From Magnetococcales bacterium (lineage in GTDB: Bacteria > Pseudomonadota > Magnetococcia > Magnetococcales > JADGAQ01), in NCBI GenBank assembly GCA_015231925.1, contig JADGAQ010000023.1, positions 1 through 32,664 of the forward strand: DNA of 32,664 nucleotides, written 5' to 3'. This document shows positions 9,315 to 32,664 of this stretch, piece by piece (position 1 is the stretch's first letter; each line of letters begins with the position of its first letter). Under the pieces are notes generated by a model. That model was given only the letters and a program-made list of their open reading frames with translations. It was not told where the DNA came from and ran no database searches. The position numbers and the translations under genes were made by a program.

Positions 9315-9335
9315 TATTGCTTCTCCTGGAATCAA

Positions 9336-9632
9336 TCAGATGTGCATATTTTGATGGGTGAATAATGGCTTGATACTGCATTGAATCCTTTCCTGATCAA
9401 GTTTGGCCAGATCGAATTGAGCCTGAAGCTGTAACCAGCTTTCGGGACTGCGACCAAAGGCTCGCGATAAACGGACCGCCATTTCCGGAGAAATACCCGA
9501 GTGGCCGTTCAATAAAAGCGACAGGGTTTTGCGCGTTACCCCAAGACCTTCGGCGGCTTGTGTTACCGAAAGGTGCAATGGCTTCAGACATAAATCACGA
9601 ATGATTTCTCCGGGGGAGACTGGATCGTTCAT
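9336..9632 (-). CDS. higA: HigA-family antitoxin, XRE-type HTH
   Basis: A 98-residue DNA-binding antitoxin. It opens with [10 protein letters not shown], the classic HigA N-terminus, followed by the helix-turn-helix (about 22-60: [20 protein letters not shown] and the [20 protein letters not shown] segment). Length is normal. It neutralises HigB and usually represses its own operon. AGGAAAC lies upstream of the ATG, and the gene begins 10 bp after higB. The toxin-first order (higB then higA) is the standard one for this family. Confidence 0.92.
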
Positions 9633-9642
9633 GGCTTGTTTC

Positions 9643-9921
9643 CTAGTGGTAGTCGATCAGGTCAACTGAGTTGGCATGCCCCTCTTCGAAACGAAAAATA
9701 ACTCGCCAGTTTCCTGAAACAGATACAGCGTAATATCCCGCCAATTCTCCGGAAAGGGAATGAAAGTGCAAACCGGGCAGGTTCATATCCTCGGCCACCA
9801 CGGCGGTATTCAGCAAGGAGAGAATTTGCCGTAATCTCTTGACAAGAGACTGCTTGACTCCCTTGCTTTGGCCCTCCTGGAACAGGAGGGAGAGACCTTT
9901 GTGCCGAATGTTCTGAATCAC
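9643..9921 (-). CDS. higB: HigB-family toxin (RelE-like mRNA interferase)
   Basis: A 92-residue RelE-superfamily toxin, expected to cleave mRNA on the ribosome. Family marks include [10 protein letters not shown] at the N-terminus, [11 protein letters not shown]-like [20 protein letters not shown], and [21 protein letters not shown] at the C-terminus, ending in the usual DYH. The start codon is GTG at 9921. The nearest Shine-Dalgarno match (ACGGGA) is weak, so translation may be low. Full length, no disruption seen; probably active together with HigA. Confidence 0.9.
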
Positions 9922-25831: not shown

Positions 25832-25877
25832 AACCTGAGTTCGGTGGATGAACAATAGGCGAAGGGGGGATCAAACC

Positions 25878-26141
25878 ATGAAACTATCCGGGCAAATCAA
25901 ACCCGTCCGTTATCTGAAAACCCACGCTCCGGAAGTTATTCGCGGTTTGGCCGATGGTAACGATCCGGTGATCATTACCTGTCATGGCGAGGCCAAGGCG
26001 GTCTTGCAGGATATCGGCGCCTACGAACAAACCCAGGAGACTCTGGCCCTGCTCAAACTCCTGGCCATGGGAAATCGGGAGATCGAGCAGGGAGAGGTGG
26101 TCCCCGCCATGGAGGTTGTGCGGCATCTGCGCCAAGCCTGA
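25878..26141 (+). CDS. Phd/YefM-family antitoxin
   Basis: An 87-residue antitoxin. The N-terminal part (KPVRYLKTHAPEVIRGLADG) and the following DPVIITCHGEAKAVLQDIGAYE are the Phd/YefM DNA-binding fold. The C-terminal helix (about 50-87) would wrap the toxin. It neutralises the ParE-like protein encoded 5 bp downstream and probably represses the pair. The start at 25878 is chosen for AGGGGGGA upstream; a 10-residue N-terminal extension is possible but lacks support. Confidence 0.9.
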   Translation: MKLSGQIKPVRYLKTHAPEVIRGLADGNDPVIITCHGEAKAVLQDIGAYEQTQETLALLKLLAMGNREIEQGEVVPAMEVVRHLRQA

Positions 26142-26146
26142 CGCCC

Positions 26147-26494
26147 ATGCGCTTCGAGGTGCTGATGACACATGGGGCCAGGCGCGATCTGGAGGAACTT
26201 CACGACTACATCGCCCGCCACGACAGCGCGGAAAAGGCGGCCCATGTACTCGATGCCGTCTTGGGGATCGTTGAAACCCTGGCCGAATTTCCGAAACGCG
26301 GTGCGCATCCCAGGGAGCTTCATGCCTTGGGTATCGAGGAGTTCCGTGAGATCGGCTTCAAGCCCTACCGGGTGATCTATCGGATTCAGGGGCAGCGCGT
26401 TTACATTCTTCTGGTTGCCGATGGTCGGCGGGATTTTCAAAACCTTCTCAAAAGTCGGTTCCTCAGGGCATGGGACAGACACGTGATGTCTTGA
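26147..26494 (+). CDS. RelE/ParE-family toxin
   Basis: A 115-residue toxin of the RelE/ParE superfamily. It shows ARRDLEELHDYIARHDS at the N-terminus, FPKRGAHPRELHALGIEEFR in the middle and YRVIYRIQGQRVYILLVADGRRDF near the end. The ParE-like spacing and the DGRRDF ending fit the plasmid-stabilisation group. Whether it hits gyrase or mRNA cannot be told from sequence. It follows the antitoxin at 5 bp. The C-terminus carries about 15 residues beyond the core. Apparently intact. Confidence 0.9.
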   Translation: MRFEVLMTHGARRDLEELHDYIARHDSAEKAAHVLDAVLGIVETLAEFPKRGAHPRELHALGIEEFREIGFKPYRVIYRIQGQRVYILLVADGRRDFQNLLKSRFLRAWDRHVMS

Positions 26495-26839: not shown

Positions 26840-27133
26840 CTACGGCAGCACGATGACCCGCTTTTCCGGCTCCGCCGCCGCCCTGTAGAGGATCAGGACA
26901 TGACCGATCATGCCGGCCACGTCGCTGCCGGTGGACTCGGCGATCTGCTGGCTCAACGCCTCCTTCTCCTCCTTGAAGCCGCCGAAGCGCACCTTGATCA
27001 ACTCGTGATCCCGCAGGCCCCGGTCCACCTCTCCCAGAACCCCTGGCGTCACGCCGTCCTTGCCGATGGTCACCACCGGATTGAGTCCGTGGGCCAAGCC
27101 CCGCAGATATTTGCGCTGCGTTCCCGTCAACAT
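26840..27133 (-). CDS. yhbY: YhbY/CRS1-type RNA-binding protein
   Basis: A 97-residue single CRM-domain protein that associates with the pre-50S ribosome. Seen are LTGTQRKYLRGLAHGLNPVV at the start, the GKDGVTPGVLGEVDRGLRDH loop, and the helical region LIKVRFGGFKEEKEALSQQI. The full fold is covered with no extension. The start at 27133 has GGGGAG upstream; a longer frame from 27418 overlaps the divergent zinc-knuckle gene and is rejected. The neighbouring hypothetical gene follows at 12 bp. Confidence 0.93.
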   Translation of the reverse strand: MLTGTQRKYLRGLAHGLNPVVTIGKDGVTPGVLGEVDRGLRDHELIKVRFGGFKEEKEALSQQIAESTGSDVAGMIGHVLILYRAAAEPEKRVIVLP

Positions 27134-27232
27134 GCCATTCTCCCCAAAGGATCGTATCGCAAGGAGACCCTTGCGGCAGCCGCCGAAAAGCGGCCATGAT
27201 AGCGCGTTTGGCCCATACAGGAAGCGATTTTC

Positions 27233-27472
27233 ATGGAAAAGAGTTCCGAAACGACCCCGACCGCCCCGCGCCGACGCAAACCATTGCGCCATTCCAAAGG
27301 GCCGTGCGTGGCCTGCAAGGCCGTGGATCTGCCCTTCTTCTGGCTTTGCCGCCACTGCGCCTTCACCATGTGCCAGGCCTGCATGCAGGAGAACCTCTGG
27401 GGCATGACCTGCAACCATGTCATCTGGATCTGTCCCGACTGCGGGGCGGAAAACGACTTCGGCAACCGCTGA
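27233..27472 (+). CDS. Small cysteine-rich zinc-knuckle protein
   Basis: A 79-residue protein with four CxxC pairs (C25/C28, C39/C42, C47/C50, C67/C70) plus C60 and H62, all within 46 residues. The arrangement suggests two interleaved zinc sites, as in ZZ, RING or treble-clef domains, but it matches no family I can name. The first 22 residues are basic and unstructured (APRRRKPLRH). AGGAAG precedes the ATG. Its stop is followed by TC and the ATG of a membrane GTPase, so the two are translationally coupled. It is divergent from yhbY. A regulatory or adaptor role for the GTPases is plausible but unproven. Confidence 0.8.
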   Translation: MEKSSETTPTAPRRRKPLRHSKGPCVACKAVDLPFFWLCRHCAFTMCQACMQENLWGMTCNHVIWICPDCGAENDFGNR

Positions 27473-27474
27473 TC

Positions 27475-28974
27475 ATGGGCCTGAACCGGCATCTGCTGCT
27501 GCTCTTCGCCTTGCTGGCGGGAACCGTCTGGTTCGCCGTTCAGATCGTTCAGGGCGCCGAAGCCCTCGTTGACCTCTGGCTGCGGCTGCAACTCCTGCCC
27601 TCCTGGCTGCGCATCACCCTGATCAGCGTCGCTGCCGCTCTGTTCGGTCTGCTGCTCGCGGGCGGTTTCCTCTTCTACCGCCGTTTGAACAAACCGGTGG
27701 TTCCGGCCCGAAAAGCACCTCCGCTCACGGAAGAGGCTCTGACGGCCCGCCTCGAAACCATCGGGCAACAGAACATCGACACCCGCGCCGCACGGGAAGA
27801 GTTGGCGGAACTGATGCGCCGCCGCGCCACGGGGGAGATTCATATCGCACTTCTCGGCGCGGTCAACAGCGGCAAAAGCACCCTGGTGAAGGCGCTGGTG
27901 CCGGAAGCCCGGGTGGAGATCAGCCCGGTGGGGGGCACCACCCGCGCCATCACCCGCCACGTCTGGACCACGCCGGCGGGGGACCGTCTGCTGATCGCCG
28001 ATCTGCCGGGTCTCGACGACCCCGCTTCGGAGGAGCTTTCCCGGTTGGCTCGGGAAGAGGCGCAACGCGCCCATCTGGTCATCTCCCTCTGCACCGGCGA
28101 TTTGACCCGCAGCGAATACCGGGAGCTGGACTATCTGTCCACCTTGAACAAACCGGTCGTGGTGGCCATGAACAAGGCGGACCATTACAGCGAGGGGGAG
28201 ACCGCCAGCCTGCTGGCGCAGCTCGAAAAGCGGCTCGATGCCCTGTCGGGCCGGGAGAAGATGAGTCTGGTGGCCATTCGCAGCGGCGGTAGCCGGGAGG
28301 TCTTCCGCCTCTTGCCCAACGGCGAAGAGCAGCGTGAAATCCGCCTGCTGCCTCCCGCCGTGACGCCGCTGGCCCGGGCCATGCTGGCGGCTTTGGATCG
28401 CCACGGCGAAGTGCTGGAGAGCCTGCGGGACAGCGCCATCTTCGCCCTGTCCGCTCAAAAACTGGACCAGGCCTTGCGGGAGGCACGGCGGCAGCGGGCC
28501 GATGCGGCGATCGACAGCCATGCCCGTCGCGCCGTGGTCGGCGCGTTGGCCGCCGTCTCACCGGGCATGGATCTGCTGTTTCAGGGGATTCTCGGCCTGA
28601 GCCTGGTGAAGGAGTTGTCCGCCATTTACGAGGTTTCCGTCTCCACCCGTGAGGTGGAACAACTGCTCAAGAAGACCGATCTGCGGCTGCACCGCTCGTT
28701 GCCCCTCTTTCTGGCCATTGTGGGCAATCTGCTCAAAGCCTTTCCCGGCCTGGGCACCGTGGGCGGGGGGCTGCTGCACGCCGTGGCCTACGGCATGCTC
28801 TTCGACAGCCTGGGTCACGCCGTGGCCCGCTCCCTGGAAGAACAGGGCGTTCTGCTCTCCGAACCGGCCATCCGCCTCTTCGAGGAGAACCTGAGCCTCG
28901 ATCTGGAGGAGCGGGGCAAGCGGTTCGCCCGTCTGGCCCTGGACAGCCTGGGCCAAAAAGGGAGCAAGGCGTGA
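27475..28974 (+). CDS. Membrane-anchored GTPase with DUF697 C-terminal domain
   Basis: A 499-residue protein. Two membrane helices (about 5-25 and 47-67) precede an Era/HSR1-like G domain: G1 GAVNSGKST (128-136), G3 DLPG (176-179), G4 NKAD (233-236). The C-terminal third (about 340-499) is alpha-helical with hydrophobic stretches and the SPGMDLLFQGILGLSLVKEL segment typical of DUF697. No Shine-Dalgarno is seen; the start is coupled to the preceding gene through TGATCATGG. The following gene encodes a paralogue, coupled by the same sequence. Function unknown; membrane-associated GTPases of this kind may act in envelope or stress processes. Confidence 0.85.
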   Translation: MGLNRHLLLLFALLAGTVWFAVQIVQGAEALVDLWLRLQLLPSWLRITLISVAAALFGLLLAGGFLFYRRLNKPVVPARKAPPLTEEALTARLETIGQQNIDTRAAREELAELMRRRATGEIHIALLGAVNSGKSTLVKALVPEARVEISPVGGTTRAITRHVWTTPAGDRLLIADLPGLDDPASEELSRLAREEAQRAHLVISLCTGDLTRSEYRELDYLSTLNKPVVVAMNKADHYSEGETASLLAQLEKRLDALSGREKMSLVAIRSGGSREVFRLLPNGEEQREIRLLPPAVTPLARAMLAALDRHGEVLESLRDSAIFALSAQKLDQALREARRQRADAAIDSHARRAVVGALAAVSPGMDLLFQGILGLSLVKELSAIYEVSVSTREVEQLLKKTDLRLHRSLPLFLAIVGNLLKAFPGLGTVGGGLLHAVAYGMLFDSLGHAVARSLEEQGVLLSEPAIRLFEENLSLDLEERGKRFARLALDSLGQKGSKA

Positions 28975-28976
28975 TC

Positions 28977-30335
28977 ATGGACCTCTCACAACGGCTGCGT
29001 CAGTTGCTGGGTCGCAGGAAGACCGGGTTTTCCGACCTCCCCGCCGATGGCAGTCACCATCTGAATCTGGCCAAACAGAGCCTGCGGGATCTTCTCGACG
29101 ACCCCCATATCCCCCATCTGGTGCGTCAGGCGCTGCAACACGATTACCAGGAGCTGCAAACCCTGCTGGGCAAACTCGATGCCGGGCATATCCACATCGC
29201 CGTCTGCGGACGGGTGGGGGTGGGCAAGTCGGCTCTGCTCAACGCTTTGTTGGGCCAGGAGTGTTTTTCCGTCAGTCCGTTGCACGGCGAAACCAAAAAA
29301 CCCGGCGAGGCCCCGTGGGCGGTGGCCAATCTGGGGGAGGGGCTCTTCCTCATCGATACCCCTGGTCTCGACGAGGTGGACGGCGAAGCCCGTGAGACCA
29401 TGACCCGCCGTGTGGTACACGGCAGCGACCTGACCCTTTTCGTCACCGAGGGGGATCTGACCCACAGTGAGTTTCAGGCCTTCCGGGAGTTGATCTCCCA
29501 GGTTCACAAGCCCCTGATCCTCATTCTCAACAAGGCGGACCGCTTTACCCTGGAGGAGCGGGAGTTGCTGCTGGCCACCCTGCGGCAACGCACTGCGGGT
29601 TTGCTGCCGGCGGATCGCCTTCTGGCCTGCGCCGCCAAACCCCGCTCCCGAATCCACCTTGAAACCCTGCCCGACGGCTCCGAACGGGAGATCAGCCGAC
29701 CCAGTCCGCCGGAGGTGGAAAATCTGCGTCAACTGTTGACCACCATTCTGCTCGCCGAGGGCAAGACCCTGGCGGCCGTCAACGCCGGTCTGGCTGCCGG
29801 GCGCTTCTCCGACCAGCTTTCGGTGGAGCTGACCAGTCTGTTCCACGACGCCGCCGAACGGGTCATCCGCGCCTACTGCATCGGCAAGGGGGTGGCCGTG
29901 GCCATCAATCCGCTGCCTCTGGTGGATATCCTGGCCATGGCCGCCGACGGGGCCATGGTGATGAATCTGGCCCAGGTCTACCACATGCGCATCGACGCCC
30001 ACGAGGCGGGCCATCTGCTGCGCACCATCGCCGGGCAGATGCTCTTCCTGATGGGTACCGTTTACGGCACCCACCTGCTCTCTTCCGCCTTCAAGAGCGT
30101 CAGCGCCGGGCTTTCCACCTTCCTGACCGCCGGCGCCCAGGGCGCGGTGGCCTACTACGGCACCTACGCCATCGGACGCGCTGCGGAACGCTACTTCGCC
30201 CAGGGCAAATCCTGGGGTCCCGGCGGTCCCAAACAGGCGGTGCGGGAGATTCTCGACAGCCTGGACCGCCAGTCGATCCTCTCCCAGGCACGGGACGACA
30301 TCCTGGCGCGGCTGCGGCCCGGGAACAAATCATGA
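28977..30335 (+). CDS. Second DUF697-type GTPase, paralogue of the preceding gene
   Basis: A 452-residue protein. The G domain has G1 GRVGVGKS (78-85), G3 DTPG (127-130) and G4 NKAD (185-188). The helical C-terminal region (about 265-440) holds INPLPLVDILAMAADGAMV and further hydrophobic segments, the DUF697 signature. Unlike its partner it lacks the two N-terminal membrane helices. A GTG at 28971 with GGGAG upstream is an alternative start; ATG 28977 is preferred because the junction TGATCATGG is identical to the one before the first GTPase. The pair likely arose by duplication and may form a heterodimer, which is inference. Repeat arm D begins 5 bp after the stop. Confidence 0.85.
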   Translation: MDLSQRLRQLLGRRKTGFSDLPADGSHHLNLAKQSLRDLLDDPHIPHLVRQALQHDYQELQTLLGKLDAGHIHIAVCGRVGVGKSALLNALLGQECFSVSPLHGETKKPGEAPWAVANLGEGLFLIDTPGLDEVDGEARETMTRRVVHGSDLTLFVTEGDLTHSEFQAFRELISQVHKPLILILNKADRFTLEERELLLATLRQRTAGLLPADRLLACAAKPRSRIHLETLPDGSEREISRPSPPEVENLRQLLTTILLAEGKTLAAVNAGLAAGRFSDQLSVELTSLFHDAAERVIRAYCIGKGVAVAINPLPLVDILAMAADGAMVMNLAQVYHMRIDAHEAGHLLRTIAGQMLFLMGTVYGTHLLSSAFKSVSAGLSTFLTAGAQGAVAYYGTYAIGRAAERYFAQGKSWGPGGPKQAVREILDSLDRQSILSQARDDILARLRPGNKS

Positions 30336-30340
30336 ATCTT

Positions 30341-30402
30341 TTGACTTTCAATATGTTATCTTTTAAGTATCAAAAAAAGAAAATGTTCTATCCTTTGACT
30401 TT
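30341..30402 (+). repeat. AT-rich repeat arm D (solo)
   Basis: A single arm in left-arm orientation, TTGACTTTCAATATGTTATC through AAAATGTTCTATCCTTTGACT, nearly identical to the arms of elements A and B. No right arm follows; after an AT-rich stretch (30403-30450) the GC-rich repeat copy 2 begins. The TTGACT at its inner edge (30395-30400) has no -10 at normal spacing here. Confidence 0.85.
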
Positions 30403-30464
30403 TTATTATTTATAAATAAGCAAAATAAATAATTTTATTAAATCACGACATGACCGCATAAAAG

Positions 30465-30540
30465 GCGAAAAGAAAAATCCCAGGGCGCTGCCCTGGACCC
30501 GTCTGGGGGGATAATCCCCCCCGAACCCCCGTATATCTGA
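30465..30540 (+). repeat. GC-rich double-hairpin repeat, copy 2
   Basis: About 72 of 76 bases match copy 1 at 95-170, including both hairpins (CCAGGGC/GCCCTGG and the G6/C-run stem around ATAAT). It ends 4 bp before the first ATG of the membrane TPR gene and therefore occupies the place where a ribosome-binding site would be expected. Confidence 0.88.
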
Positions 30541-30544
30541 ACAG

Positions 30545-32167
30545 ATGCCCCAAGAATCTTCCGAAAGGATTTTGCAATTGTCTCCGGAGATGCGTCAGTC
30601 CTTTCCCACCGGCCCTTTTCTGTTGATTGCCCTGGCGCTGCTGACCGTCTATCACGCCGTGCCTTCCTTCCCCTACAGCGGCATGGACGATACCGCCTTC
30701 ATTCCCGGCAATCCCCAGGTGCGCAACGGTCTCTCCTGGGACGGCCTGCTTTGGGCGCTGCGCGGGGGGGAACCCTTCGGCCTGTGGACCCCTCTCGTCT
30801 GGCTCTCCTTCATGGCGGAAGTTTCGGTTTTCGGACTCTCCCCCTTCATCCACCATCTCGACAACCTGCTGTTGCATCTGGCCAATGTCTTCCTTTTCGC
30901 CCGGCTGCTGCATCGGTTGGGACAGTCTTCCCGGGTGGTGCTGACGGCTGCCGCCCTTTTTGCCCTCCACCCCATTCATGTGGAGTCGGTGGTTTGGATC
31001 GCCGAACGCAAGGATCTGTTGTTTCTCTTCTTTTCCCTGCTGACCCTGCTGGCCCATTGTCGGGGAGAGCGACTGACGACGCTGTTATTCTTCTTTCTGG
31101 CCACGACCGCCAAACCCATGGCCATCACCCTGCCGATCCTGCTGTTGTTGCTCGACTACGGACTCCTGGGTCGGGCCGCGTCGGGTTTTTGGCCTCTGCT
31201 GCGGCAAAAGGCCCTCCTTTTTCTCCTGGCGCTGCTCGTCGCCGTGGCTACCTTCCTGCTGCATGAAGCTCAGGGCAACCTGGCGGATACCCGGATTCTG
31301 CCTTTGTGGGCTCGTTTCGACAACGCCCTGGTCTCTTACCTCGCTTATCCCCTCAAACTGCTCTGGCCCTATCCCCTGGCCCCGAACTATCCCCATCCCG
31401 GCACGGAGCTGCCCCTGTGGAAGCCGCTGCTCGCCGCTCCGCTACTGCTCGGCCTGACCGTGCCGGTCTGGAAAAACCGTGAGCGTTGGCCCTTTCTGTT
31501 CACCGGCTGGTTCTGGTATCTCATCGCCTTGTTACCTGCCAGCGGCTTGGTGCAATTCGCCGATCAGGCCATGGCCGACCACTTCCTCTATCTGCCCGCC
31601 CTGGGGCTTTATCTGGCGGCTGCCGGTGGTGTGGACCGTCTCCTGCGGGAGAAACCCCGACTGACCCAAGCGGTAACGGGGGTGATTCTGGCTCTGTTGT
31701 TGTTGTTGTCCGTTCTGGCGCATCGCCAGAGTCTGTTGTGGAGCAGCGACGAGGTGTTGTTCCGCCATACCGCTGCCGTTACCGCACCCAATGCCCGAGC
31801 CCTGACCATGCTCGGACTCTCTCTGGGCAATCAGGAGCGCTGGCAGGAGGCGTTGCCGCTGCTCGAAGAGGCGGTTCGCCTCAAGCCGCGCATGGAGCAG
31901 GCCCGTCGTCTGCTGGGGCGCACGCTTCTGGCGCTGCAGCACCCGGAAGAGGCCCTGCCCCATCTGGAAAGCGCCGTGGCGCTTGGTCCTCAATCCGCCG
32001 TCAACCATTTGATGCTGGCTCGCGCTTTCCGGCAACTGCATCGGGACGATGCCGCCCGAAACCATCTGCGTCGGGCCAGGGAGTTGAAGCCGAACCTGAT
32101 TCCGCCTGTGGAGTTGGCTCCTCTGCTGGAGGAGGCTCCGCTTATGCTGCGTCGAGGCGCTCCCTGA
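30545..32167 (+). CDS. Multi-pass membrane protein with C-terminal TPR repeats (TMTC/O-mannosyltransferase-like)
   Basis: A 540-residue protein. About ten membrane helices fill residues 20-400. The loop after TM1 has SGMDDTAFIPGNPQVRNGLS, and further on come HPIHVESVVWIAERKDLL and FLATTAKPMAITLPILLLLLDYG, marks of a family related to GT-C glycosyltransferases and the TMTC proteins. The C-terminal part (about 410-515) has three TPR-like repeats (QERWQEALPLLEEAVRLKP, HPEEALPHLESAVALGP, HRDDAARNHLRRARELKP). The catalytic Asp pair is placed as DD in the first loop. The start is uncertain: the ATG at 30545 has no ribosome-binding site, while AAAGGA lies 8 bp before an in-frame TTG at 30578. Probable role: sugar transfer to surface molecules. 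Confidence 0.82.
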   Translation: MPQESSERILQLSPEMRQSFPTGPFLLIALALLTVYHAVPSFPYSGMDDTAFIPGNPQVRNGLSWDGLLWALRGGEPFGLWTPLVWLSFMAEVSVFGLSPFIHHLDNLLLHLANVFLFARLLHRLGQSSRVVLTAAALFALHPIHVESVVWIAERKDLLFLFFSLLTLLAHCRGERLTTLLFFFLATTAKPMAITLPILLLLLDYGLLGRAASGFWPLLRQKALLFLLALLVAVATFLLHEAQGNLADTRILPLWARFDNALVSYLAYPLKLLWPYPLAPNYPHPGTELPLWKPLLAAPLLLGLTVPVWKNRERWPFLFTGWFWYLIALLPASGLVQFADQAMADHFLYLPALGLYLAAAGGVDRLLREKPRLTQAVTGVILALLLLLSVLAHRQSLLWSSDEVLFRHTAAVTAPNARALTMLGLSLGNQERWQEALPLLEEAVRLKPRMEQARRLLGRTLLALQHPEEALPHLESAVALGPQSAVNHLMLARAFRQLHRDDAARNHLRRARELKPNLIPPVELAPLLEEAPLMLRRGAP

Positions 32168-32168
32168 C

Positions 32169-32558
32169 ATGGCGCTTGGCACCCGTCTGGACAAATGGCT
32201 TTGGGCCGCCCGTTTTTTCAAGACCCGCACCCTGGCTCAGGAGGCTGTTTCCGGTGGTCGGGTGCAACGCAACGGCGGGTCCACCTCGCCGGGGCAGGAG
32301 CTCAAGCCCGGCGATCGTTTGTTCATTCGCCGCGAGCCTTTCACCTTCGAAATCGTTGTTCTGGCTTTATCGGAACAGCGTGGTCCGGCGAGTGTGGCGG
32401 CCACCTTGTATCAGGAGACGGCGGAGAGTGTGGAGAACCGGCATAAGCAGGCTGACGAGGCGCGGTTGCAGGCCAGGGTGGCTGTTCGGTTCCATGAGAA
32501 GGGCCGTCCCACGAAGCGCGACCGTCGGGAGAGGGATCGGGTTTTCGAAGAGTCTTGA
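32169..32558 (+). CDS. hslR: S4-domain RNA-binding protein Hsp15
   Basis: A 129-residue protein that binds free 50S subunits carrying stalled nascent chains. The S4 domain spans about 6-65: TRLDKWLWAARFFKTRTLAQ, GGRVQRNG and LKPGDRLFIRR. The middle motif EQRGPASVAATLYQETAESV and the basic, charged C-terminal tail match the family. Length is that of E. coli Hsp15 (133). It begins one base after the stop of the membrane TPR gene, so it is probably cotranscribed, although a functional tie is not evident. Confidence 0.95.
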   Translation: MALGTRLDKWLWAARFFKTRTLAQEAVSGGRVQRNGGSTSPGQELKPGDRLFIRREPFTFEIVVLALSEQRGPASVAATLYQETAESVENRHKQADEARLQARVAVRFHEKGRPTKRDRRERDRVFEES

Positions 32559-32612: not shown

Positions 32613-32664
32613 ATACGGGGGTCCGGGGGGGATTATCCCCCCCGGCGGGGTTCGGGGCGGAGCC
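32613..32664 (-). repeat. GC-rich double-hairpin repeat, copy 3 (reverse, cut by window end)
   Basis: The reverse complement reads as in copies 1 and 2: a stretch of C with AACCCC, a G-run/ATAAT/C-run stem and a terminal ACCCCCGTAT. The first hairpin is missing or degenerate (GGCTCCGCCCC instead of AGGGCGCTGCCCTGG) and may extend beyond the window. It lies just after hslR and could stop transcription there. Confidence 0.75.

Follow-up and report, generated by a model that had tools for sequence, protein, structure and literature searches.

GTPase heterodimers are represented in bacteria by few systems, SRP-FtsY and some dynamin pairs among them. In Escherichia coli, YcjX, a DUF463 GTPase, is paired with YcjF, a DUF697 protein of the inner membrane. 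Cyanobacterial DUF697 GTPases make up the slr1306 family (NCBIfam NF049994), and slr1306 itself is a putative component of the CO2-concentrating mechanism (CCM) according to a 2008 J Bacteriol paper, as referenced in PMC5472144. The DO-GTPase systems (Kaur et al. 2020, PMC7159879) comprise two paralogous TRAFAC GTPases that are thought to be dimeric, often with zinc ribbons and sometimes with transmembrane (TM) segments. For DUF697, the papers found here to name the domain give no function in their titles or abstracts. Here we analyse three tandem genes on the plus strand of a 32,664-nucleotide stretch from a Magnetococcales bacterium (assembly GCA_015231925.1, contig JADGAQ010000023.1; hereafter the window): Zn, for a small cysteine-rich protein, followed by G1 and G2, for two paralogous GTPases (Table 1). 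An initial annotation had put the trio forward as the best candidate in the window for an unnamed cellular machine, perhaps at the membrane. On the genomic evidence the G1-G2 pair, and not the trio, is the conserved unit: an uncharacterised, well-conserved GTPase module, probably located at the membrane.

A search for G2 across 84,980 species genomes returned 506 relatives among the pattern matches, not all of them necessarily orthologues, and the 80 best-scoring loci, which are not a random sample, were compared. In 75 of these, the gene immediately upstream of G2, and in the same direction, is G1; the other five include contig edges and one locus dropped by an overlap filter. Many of the genomes are fragmented metagenome-assembled genomes, so some absences of genes may be assembly gaps. 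Besides Magnetococcales, the loci represent Competibacteraceae, Chromatiales, Thiodiazotropha, Woeseiaceae, Sedimenticola, Achromatium and further lineages. One G2 labelled ‘Phycisphaerales’ falls within Competibacteraceae in the tree and may stem from a mis-binned contig. Within Magnetococcia, a close G2 (50–60% identity) was present in 8 of 48 genomes, each time with an adjoining G1. When 25 G1 and 25 G2 rows were placed in one tree, a single branch split the two sets (Shimodaira-Hasegawa-like approximate likelihood ratio test, SH-aLRT, 100). Magnetococcia and Gammaproteobacteria occur on both sides of that branch, which argues that the duplication predates the split between these groups. 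As read from these sequences, G1 and G2 are the products of one old duplication and have been kept in tandem since. A separate tree unites the G2 proteins of Magnetococcia in a single clade (support 100/98).

The two proteins appear to be complete GTPases. Both match MMR_HSR1 in Pfam (57.3 and 57.9 bits; cut-off 21.9), and hhalign pairs them as paralogues across both the G domain and the DUF697 region (probability 100, E 3.5e-43, 338 columns). DUF697 (PF05128) scores 102.9 bits (1.9e-29) in G2, while the match in G1 is partial and marginal, at 28.7 bits where the cut-off is 27.7; no other gene of the genome carries DUF697. The motifs read GAVNSGKST (P-loop), DLPG and NKAD in G1, and GRVGVGKSA, DTPG and NKAD in G2. 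Neither looks like a dead paralogue, because these motifs are intact in nearly all orthologues (P-loop 73/75, DxPG 72/75 and NKxD 74/75 for G1; 80/80, 80/80 and 79/80 for G2). Potassium activation through a P-loop asparagine was considered and dropped: G1 of this genome has the asparagine, but just 6 of 73 G1 proteins do.

The partners differ at their N-termini. In a Kyte-Doolittle hydropathy scan (19-residue window), G1 shows two hydrophobic segments, one starting at residue 6 and the other running from residue 40 to about residue 69, and no hydrophobic segment was found ahead of the G domain in G2. This asymmetry is a family property, since 71 of 75 G1 proteins have at least one such segment ahead of the G domain, versus 0 of 80 G2 proteins. 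The initial annotation had thus correctly described two paralogous DUF697 GTPases, one with N-terminal membrane helices and one without, and its three open reading frames (ORFs), their coordinates and both junctions stand in the sequence as given. Judged from the orthologues aligned for each, all three genes are real.

A conserved third partner of the pair was sought in Gammaproteobacteria and rejected, as two neighbours proved merely lineage-specific: a thioesterase-like gene upstream (17–18 loci) and a DUF3301 gene downstream (13–17 loci). The DUF3301 protein, which has an N-terminal hydrophobic helix, is encoded closely after G2 (median offset ~6 nt in 17 loci, for example 9326–9679 in locus L117) and is a possible third component in those loci. 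Two other Pseudomonadota genomes (L217, 10508–12367; L218, 8115–9926) have both G1 and G2 about 2 kb apart. The genes between them, identified by sequence recognition and not by family search, are a YceI–cytochrome b561–YceI-like trio; they possibly point to the inner membrane or to isoprenoids as the context.

Conservation does not extend to Zn. The gene adjoins the pair in 5 of the 8 Magnetococcia genomes that have the pair, preceding G1 in G000, G006, G014, G016 and G017 (contigs C259 and C119 of G014 break inside G1). In G039, Zn and the pair are on opposite strands, ~7 kb apart, and in G007 and G015 the pair is present with no detectable Zn. Conversely, G037 and G038 lack a close GTPase pair but carry Zn, which stands there between yhbY and hslR, the same site as the trio in the window. 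Zn is absent from the gammaproteobacterial pairs; upstream of these, ORFs with at least three CxxC motifs were seen in 2 of 60 cases, both spurious and out of frame by eye. The initial annotation had named the lack of a zinc gene beside the GTPases in relatives as grounds for its own refutation, and this turns out to be half the case. The trio as a conserved system is therefore rejected, and by present evidence it is a lineage-specific arrangement, not a distinct machine.

The slot between divergent yhbY and hslR (26840–32558) varies in content across Magnetococcia, as judged from the window, G006, G008–G011, G037, G038 and G040–G045. yhbY and hslR are directly adjacent in G009–G011, and Zn stands alone between them in G037 and G038. 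The slot holds Zn, G1 and G2 in G006, the same three plus one more gene in the window genome, and a ~1000-amino acid membrane protein, with or without regulators, in several other Magnetococcia. Such variability explains the close packing of the trio without a fixed complex, and it weakens guesses based on neighbours, such as a ribosomal role.

The junctions give a similar picture. The initial annotation had inferred fixed stoichiometry from the identical TGATCATGG junctions, and this idea was rejected: the TGATCATGG junction was not found in relatives. Zn and G1 are separated by a 14-nt gap in G016 and G017, with a Shine-Dalgarno-like GGAG overlapping the stop, by a short gap after TGA in G014 and by a longer gap in G006. 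In the window itself, no Shine-Dalgarno sequence or other ribosome-binding site is evident before the ATG of G1, so that translational coupling of G1 to Zn by re-initiation is likely. G2 has an alternative in-frame GTG start at 28971, besides the ATG at 28977. A promoter scan gave no signal above chance.

It is a real possibility that Zn is functionally independent of the GTPases, a member of a Magnetococcia zinc-protein family that shares their transcript by way of the variable yhbY-hslR slot. Zn without GTPases in G037 and G038, its distant position in G039, the pairs without Zn in G007 and G015 and the changing contents of the slot all fit this explanation, as do Zn paralogues (30–40% identical to the window protein) that occur in other Magnetococcia with no GTPases beside them. 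It has to be set against the same-direction adjacency of Zn to G1 in five genomes across separate families and against the likely coupling at the window junction, which suggests co-use. Co-occurrence also exceeds chance: pair and Zn orthologue are found together in 6 of 48 Magnetococcia, where eight genomes have each (Fisher p 6e-5, uncorrected for kinship).

The Zn protein packs nine cysteines and one histidine into ~46 residues, as initially annotated, in the pattern C25-x2-C28-x10-C39-x2-C42-x4-C47-x2-C50-x16-C67-x2-C70, plus C60. All nine cysteines are invariant in an alignment of 8 Zn orthologues, and eight across 23 homologues, where Cys60 is partially conserved. His62 is unique to the window protein; relatives among these 23 sequences have Asn or another residue. 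The earlier label of zinc knuckle (CCHC, C-x2-C-x4-H-x4-C) was abandoned on two counts, the spacing (C2C-10-C2C-4-C2C-16-C2C) and the lack of conservation of His62. The spacing of the eight cysteines resembles the RING/FYVE cross-brace series, a lead and not a proof, and we predict a binuclear zinc domain with a RING/FYVE-like cross-brace. This fold is a proposal, because the AlphaFold2 (AF2) model is of low confidence (predicted local distance difference test, pLDDT, 70) and the structural matches are weak: HVO_2753 at E 0.04, and RING, U-box and ZZ domains at E 0.16–0.8, with no match at E ≤ 0.001.

Close Zn orthologues (51–66% identity) were found in 8 Magnetococcia genomes, and elsewhere among 398 genomes of the phylum there were just two marginal matches. 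Zn defines a small Magnetococcia family whose cysteine spacing recalls eukaryotic cross-brace fingers. At six loci, a Zn paralogue and an unnamed 120-amino acid protein adjoin dsrA/dsrB/dsrL-type genes, and in some cases the two precede genes of the CbbQ/NorQ-type AAA and VWA kinds. The paralogue is a possible, so far unrecognised, dsr accessory gene in Magnetococcia.

How might the pair work? The explanation we favour, tentatively, is a membrane-anchored, dimerisation-activated G1-G2 heterodimer, joined in some Magnetococcales by a zinc adaptor peculiar to their lineage. It commends itself because two full paralogues, one of them tethered, stand nearly always side by side. The working unit would be the two-gene module, of TRAFAC-class GTPases in an Era/EngA/Toc34-like branch with C-terminal DUF697. 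G1 would be held in the inner membrane by its N-terminal TM hairpin, its G domain facing the cytoplasm, and G2 would arrive from the cytosol and dock on G1 once both are GTP-bound. In the docked state the G domains would face each other, and the DUF697 helices would lie at the membrane or within it. Dimerisation would activate GTP hydrolysis, by analogy with Toc34/Toc159, GIMAP, MnmE or dynamin-like proteins, and hydrolysis would then release G2. In some Magnetococcales the small binuclear zinc-finger protein, made just before G1, would probably act as an adaptor or regulator, and elsewhere the GTPases would manage without it. The scheme builds on the gene structure, the conservation of the pair, the age of the duplication, the intact motifs, the asymmetric anchor seen by hydropathy and the optional zinc gene; from these we infer heterodimerisation, a joint need for G1 and G2, a membrane site for G2 and an adaptor role for Zn. 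That the process served is envelope maintenance or transport is a guess.

Several observations weigh against this explanation. The pair is patchy: of 48 Magnetococcia, 8 have it, and of ~350 further genomes sampled from the phylum, 3 do. Its neighbours vary and yield no pathway, and the conserved adjacency of paralogues means linkage, not contact. The structural comparisons count on both sides. The AF2 model of G2 (pLDDT 83.6) places the helices of the DUF697 part at residues 248–310, 316–334, 341–371 and 380–408, and its best Foldseek matches speak for the explanation: BDLP, mitofusin, Era, Toc34, IRG GTPases, GIMAP7 and LeoA, at E 1e-8 to 1e-6. Against it, these matches are driven by the G domain, with query template modelling (TM) scores of 0.23–0.37, so that the DUF697 part is without a solved counterpart and ‘dynamin-like’ is a mere resemblance.

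A profile search of the PDB, which also counts in favour of the heterodimer, gave matches to EngA/Der, Era, MnmE, Toc34 and GIMAP4. With EngA/Der, Era and MnmE at the top, and with yhbY (50S assembly) and an Hsp15-like gene (hslR, stalled 50S) as flanks, the locus could be taken for a ribosome-linked machine of two Era/EngA-type GTPases, with Zn binding rRNA or the ribosome; G014, G016 and G017 likewise have hslR next to the pair. We consider this unlikely, given that a Pfam scan found no KH or other RNA-binding domain, that G1 is predicted to be membrane-anchored, that gammaproteobacterial pairs have other neighbours and that the yhbY-hslR neighbourhood occurs without the pair in many Magnetococcia.

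A more far-reaching form of the heterodimer explanation, which we regard as doubtful, is that the pair represents a new class of membrane GTPase heterodimer. A tethered and a recruited partner, each a full GTPase with its own DUF697, would then act on the inner membrane in Gammaproteobacteria and Magnetococcia, joined in Magnetococcales by a RING/FYVE-like zinc adaptor that would link the pair to a partner or lipid. An ancient duplication, retention in tandem and intact motifs in both copies clearly recommend the pair as a candidate obligate GTPase heterodimer of the inner membrane in bacteria. Its presence in at least one named strain, Plasticicumulans lactativorans DSM 25287 (locus L117), makes the question accessible to experiment.

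Table 1. Features of the Zn-G1-G2 locus, in window positions
Feature	Position	Strand	Basis
Zn: 79-aa Cys-rich protein, predicted binuclear zinc domain	27233..27472	+	ORF reading
G1: 499-aa GTPase, two predicted N-terminal TM helices, divergent DUF697 C-terminal region	27475..28974	+	
G2: 452-aa GTPase without N-terminal TM, full DUF697	28977..30335	+	
Zn/G1 junction TGATCATGG, 2-nt gap	27470..27478	+	sequence reading
G1/G2 junction TGATCATGG	28972..28980	+	sequence reading
Predicted TM hairpin, G1 N-terminus	27490..27681	+	hydropathy and alignment
DUF697 domain of G2, helical	29799..30269	+	Pfam and AF2 model
yhbY (CRM domain), divergent flank of the slot with Zn, G1 and G2	26840..27133	-	
hslR-like (S4 domain, Hsp15-like), other flank of the slot	32169..32558	+	

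Two further features lie near the locus. A Phd/YefM-type antitoxin and ParE-type toxin pair occupies 25848–26494, between metH and the yhbY group. A dispersed GC-rich element of 70–75 bp is found at 30472–30545, just before the TPR membrane gene, with further copies at 102–171 and near 32616–32641. It has an inverted core, GGGGGATAATCCCCC..GAACCCCC, and at least 40 copies in the genome at 93–97% identity (40 scored of 433 first-look candidates), and looks like a repeat of the REP/MITE (repetitive extragenic palindromic/miniature inverted-repeat transposable element) type.

Compared with known proteins, Zn has the C-x2-C ... C-x2-C-x4-C-x2-C ... C-x2-C pattern in common with cross-brace fingers of the RING/FYVE/ZZ type and with the two-zinc protein HVO_2753, although no structural match is significant. 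Toc34/Toc159, GIMAP/IRG and LeoA/LeoBC share the G-domain fold of G1 and G2 and are membrane-linked GTPases activated by dimerisation; the likeness lies in the G domain, does not demonstrably extend to a helical paddle or GED and leaves the DUF697 region unmatched. In the dynamin superfamily, BDLP and mitofusin are the top Foldseek matches, at a query TM-score ≤ 0.37.

The slr1306 family has a G domain and DUF697 over most of its length, as do G1 and G2, and is the best NCBIfam match of both (9.7e-25 for G1, 7.8e-42 for G2). Together with the putative CCM role of slr1306, this could suggest that the pair is a GTP switch on an inner-membrane transporter, as proposed for the family in the cyanobacterial CCM. 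This seems improbable to us: with 87.1 and 143.5 bits against a cut-off of 490, G1 and G2 fall far short of membership, and no transporter gene was seen travelling with the pair. YcjX/YcjF is likewise a two-gene unit of a GTPase and a membrane-anchored DUF697 protein, but YcjF has no G domain and YcjX no DUF697, whereas G1 and G2 each carry both. G2 shows a weak match to YcjF at the ‘NPLPLVD..YG’ core (TIGR01620 E 4e-4; hhalign E 0.014, probability 3%); membership failed here too, with no DUF463 match and 20 bits against a TIGR01620 cut-off of 160.

The make-up of DO-GTPase systems, in which paired GTPases, a zinc module and membrane segments come together, bears on a last explanation, that the locus serves in conflict with phages, as a system akin to the DO-GTPases or to Leo/dynamin pairs. 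The patchy distribution would suit such a role, and the PADLOC models for LeoA and LeoBC give E values of 1e-11 to 1e-13 on the G domains. We hold it to be quite improbable, however, and rejected a defence assignment, as the PADLOC matches are confined to ~150 residues of the G domain and the Magnetococcia G2 proteins form one clade, not scattered acquisitions. DO-GTPase families gave no match in a Pfam scan up to E 0.1, and DO-GTPase2 (PF19993) is absent from the genome. No GAP1- or effector-like gene adjoins the pair: the next downstream gene encodes a membrane/TPR protein, and no match to GAP1 was seen at the locus, no genome-wide GAP1 search having been made. Nor is the Walker-B glutamate signature of DO-GTPases seen in G1 and G2, which have DLPG and DTPG instead, and the zinc module here is on a separate gene. 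The initial claim that no described system has this make-up was accordingly too strong, since DO-GTPase systems combine such parts, although the locus is not one of them. By sequence, the known system nearest to the pair is the slr1306 family; by make-up, the nearest are the DO-GTPases along with YcjX/YcjF.

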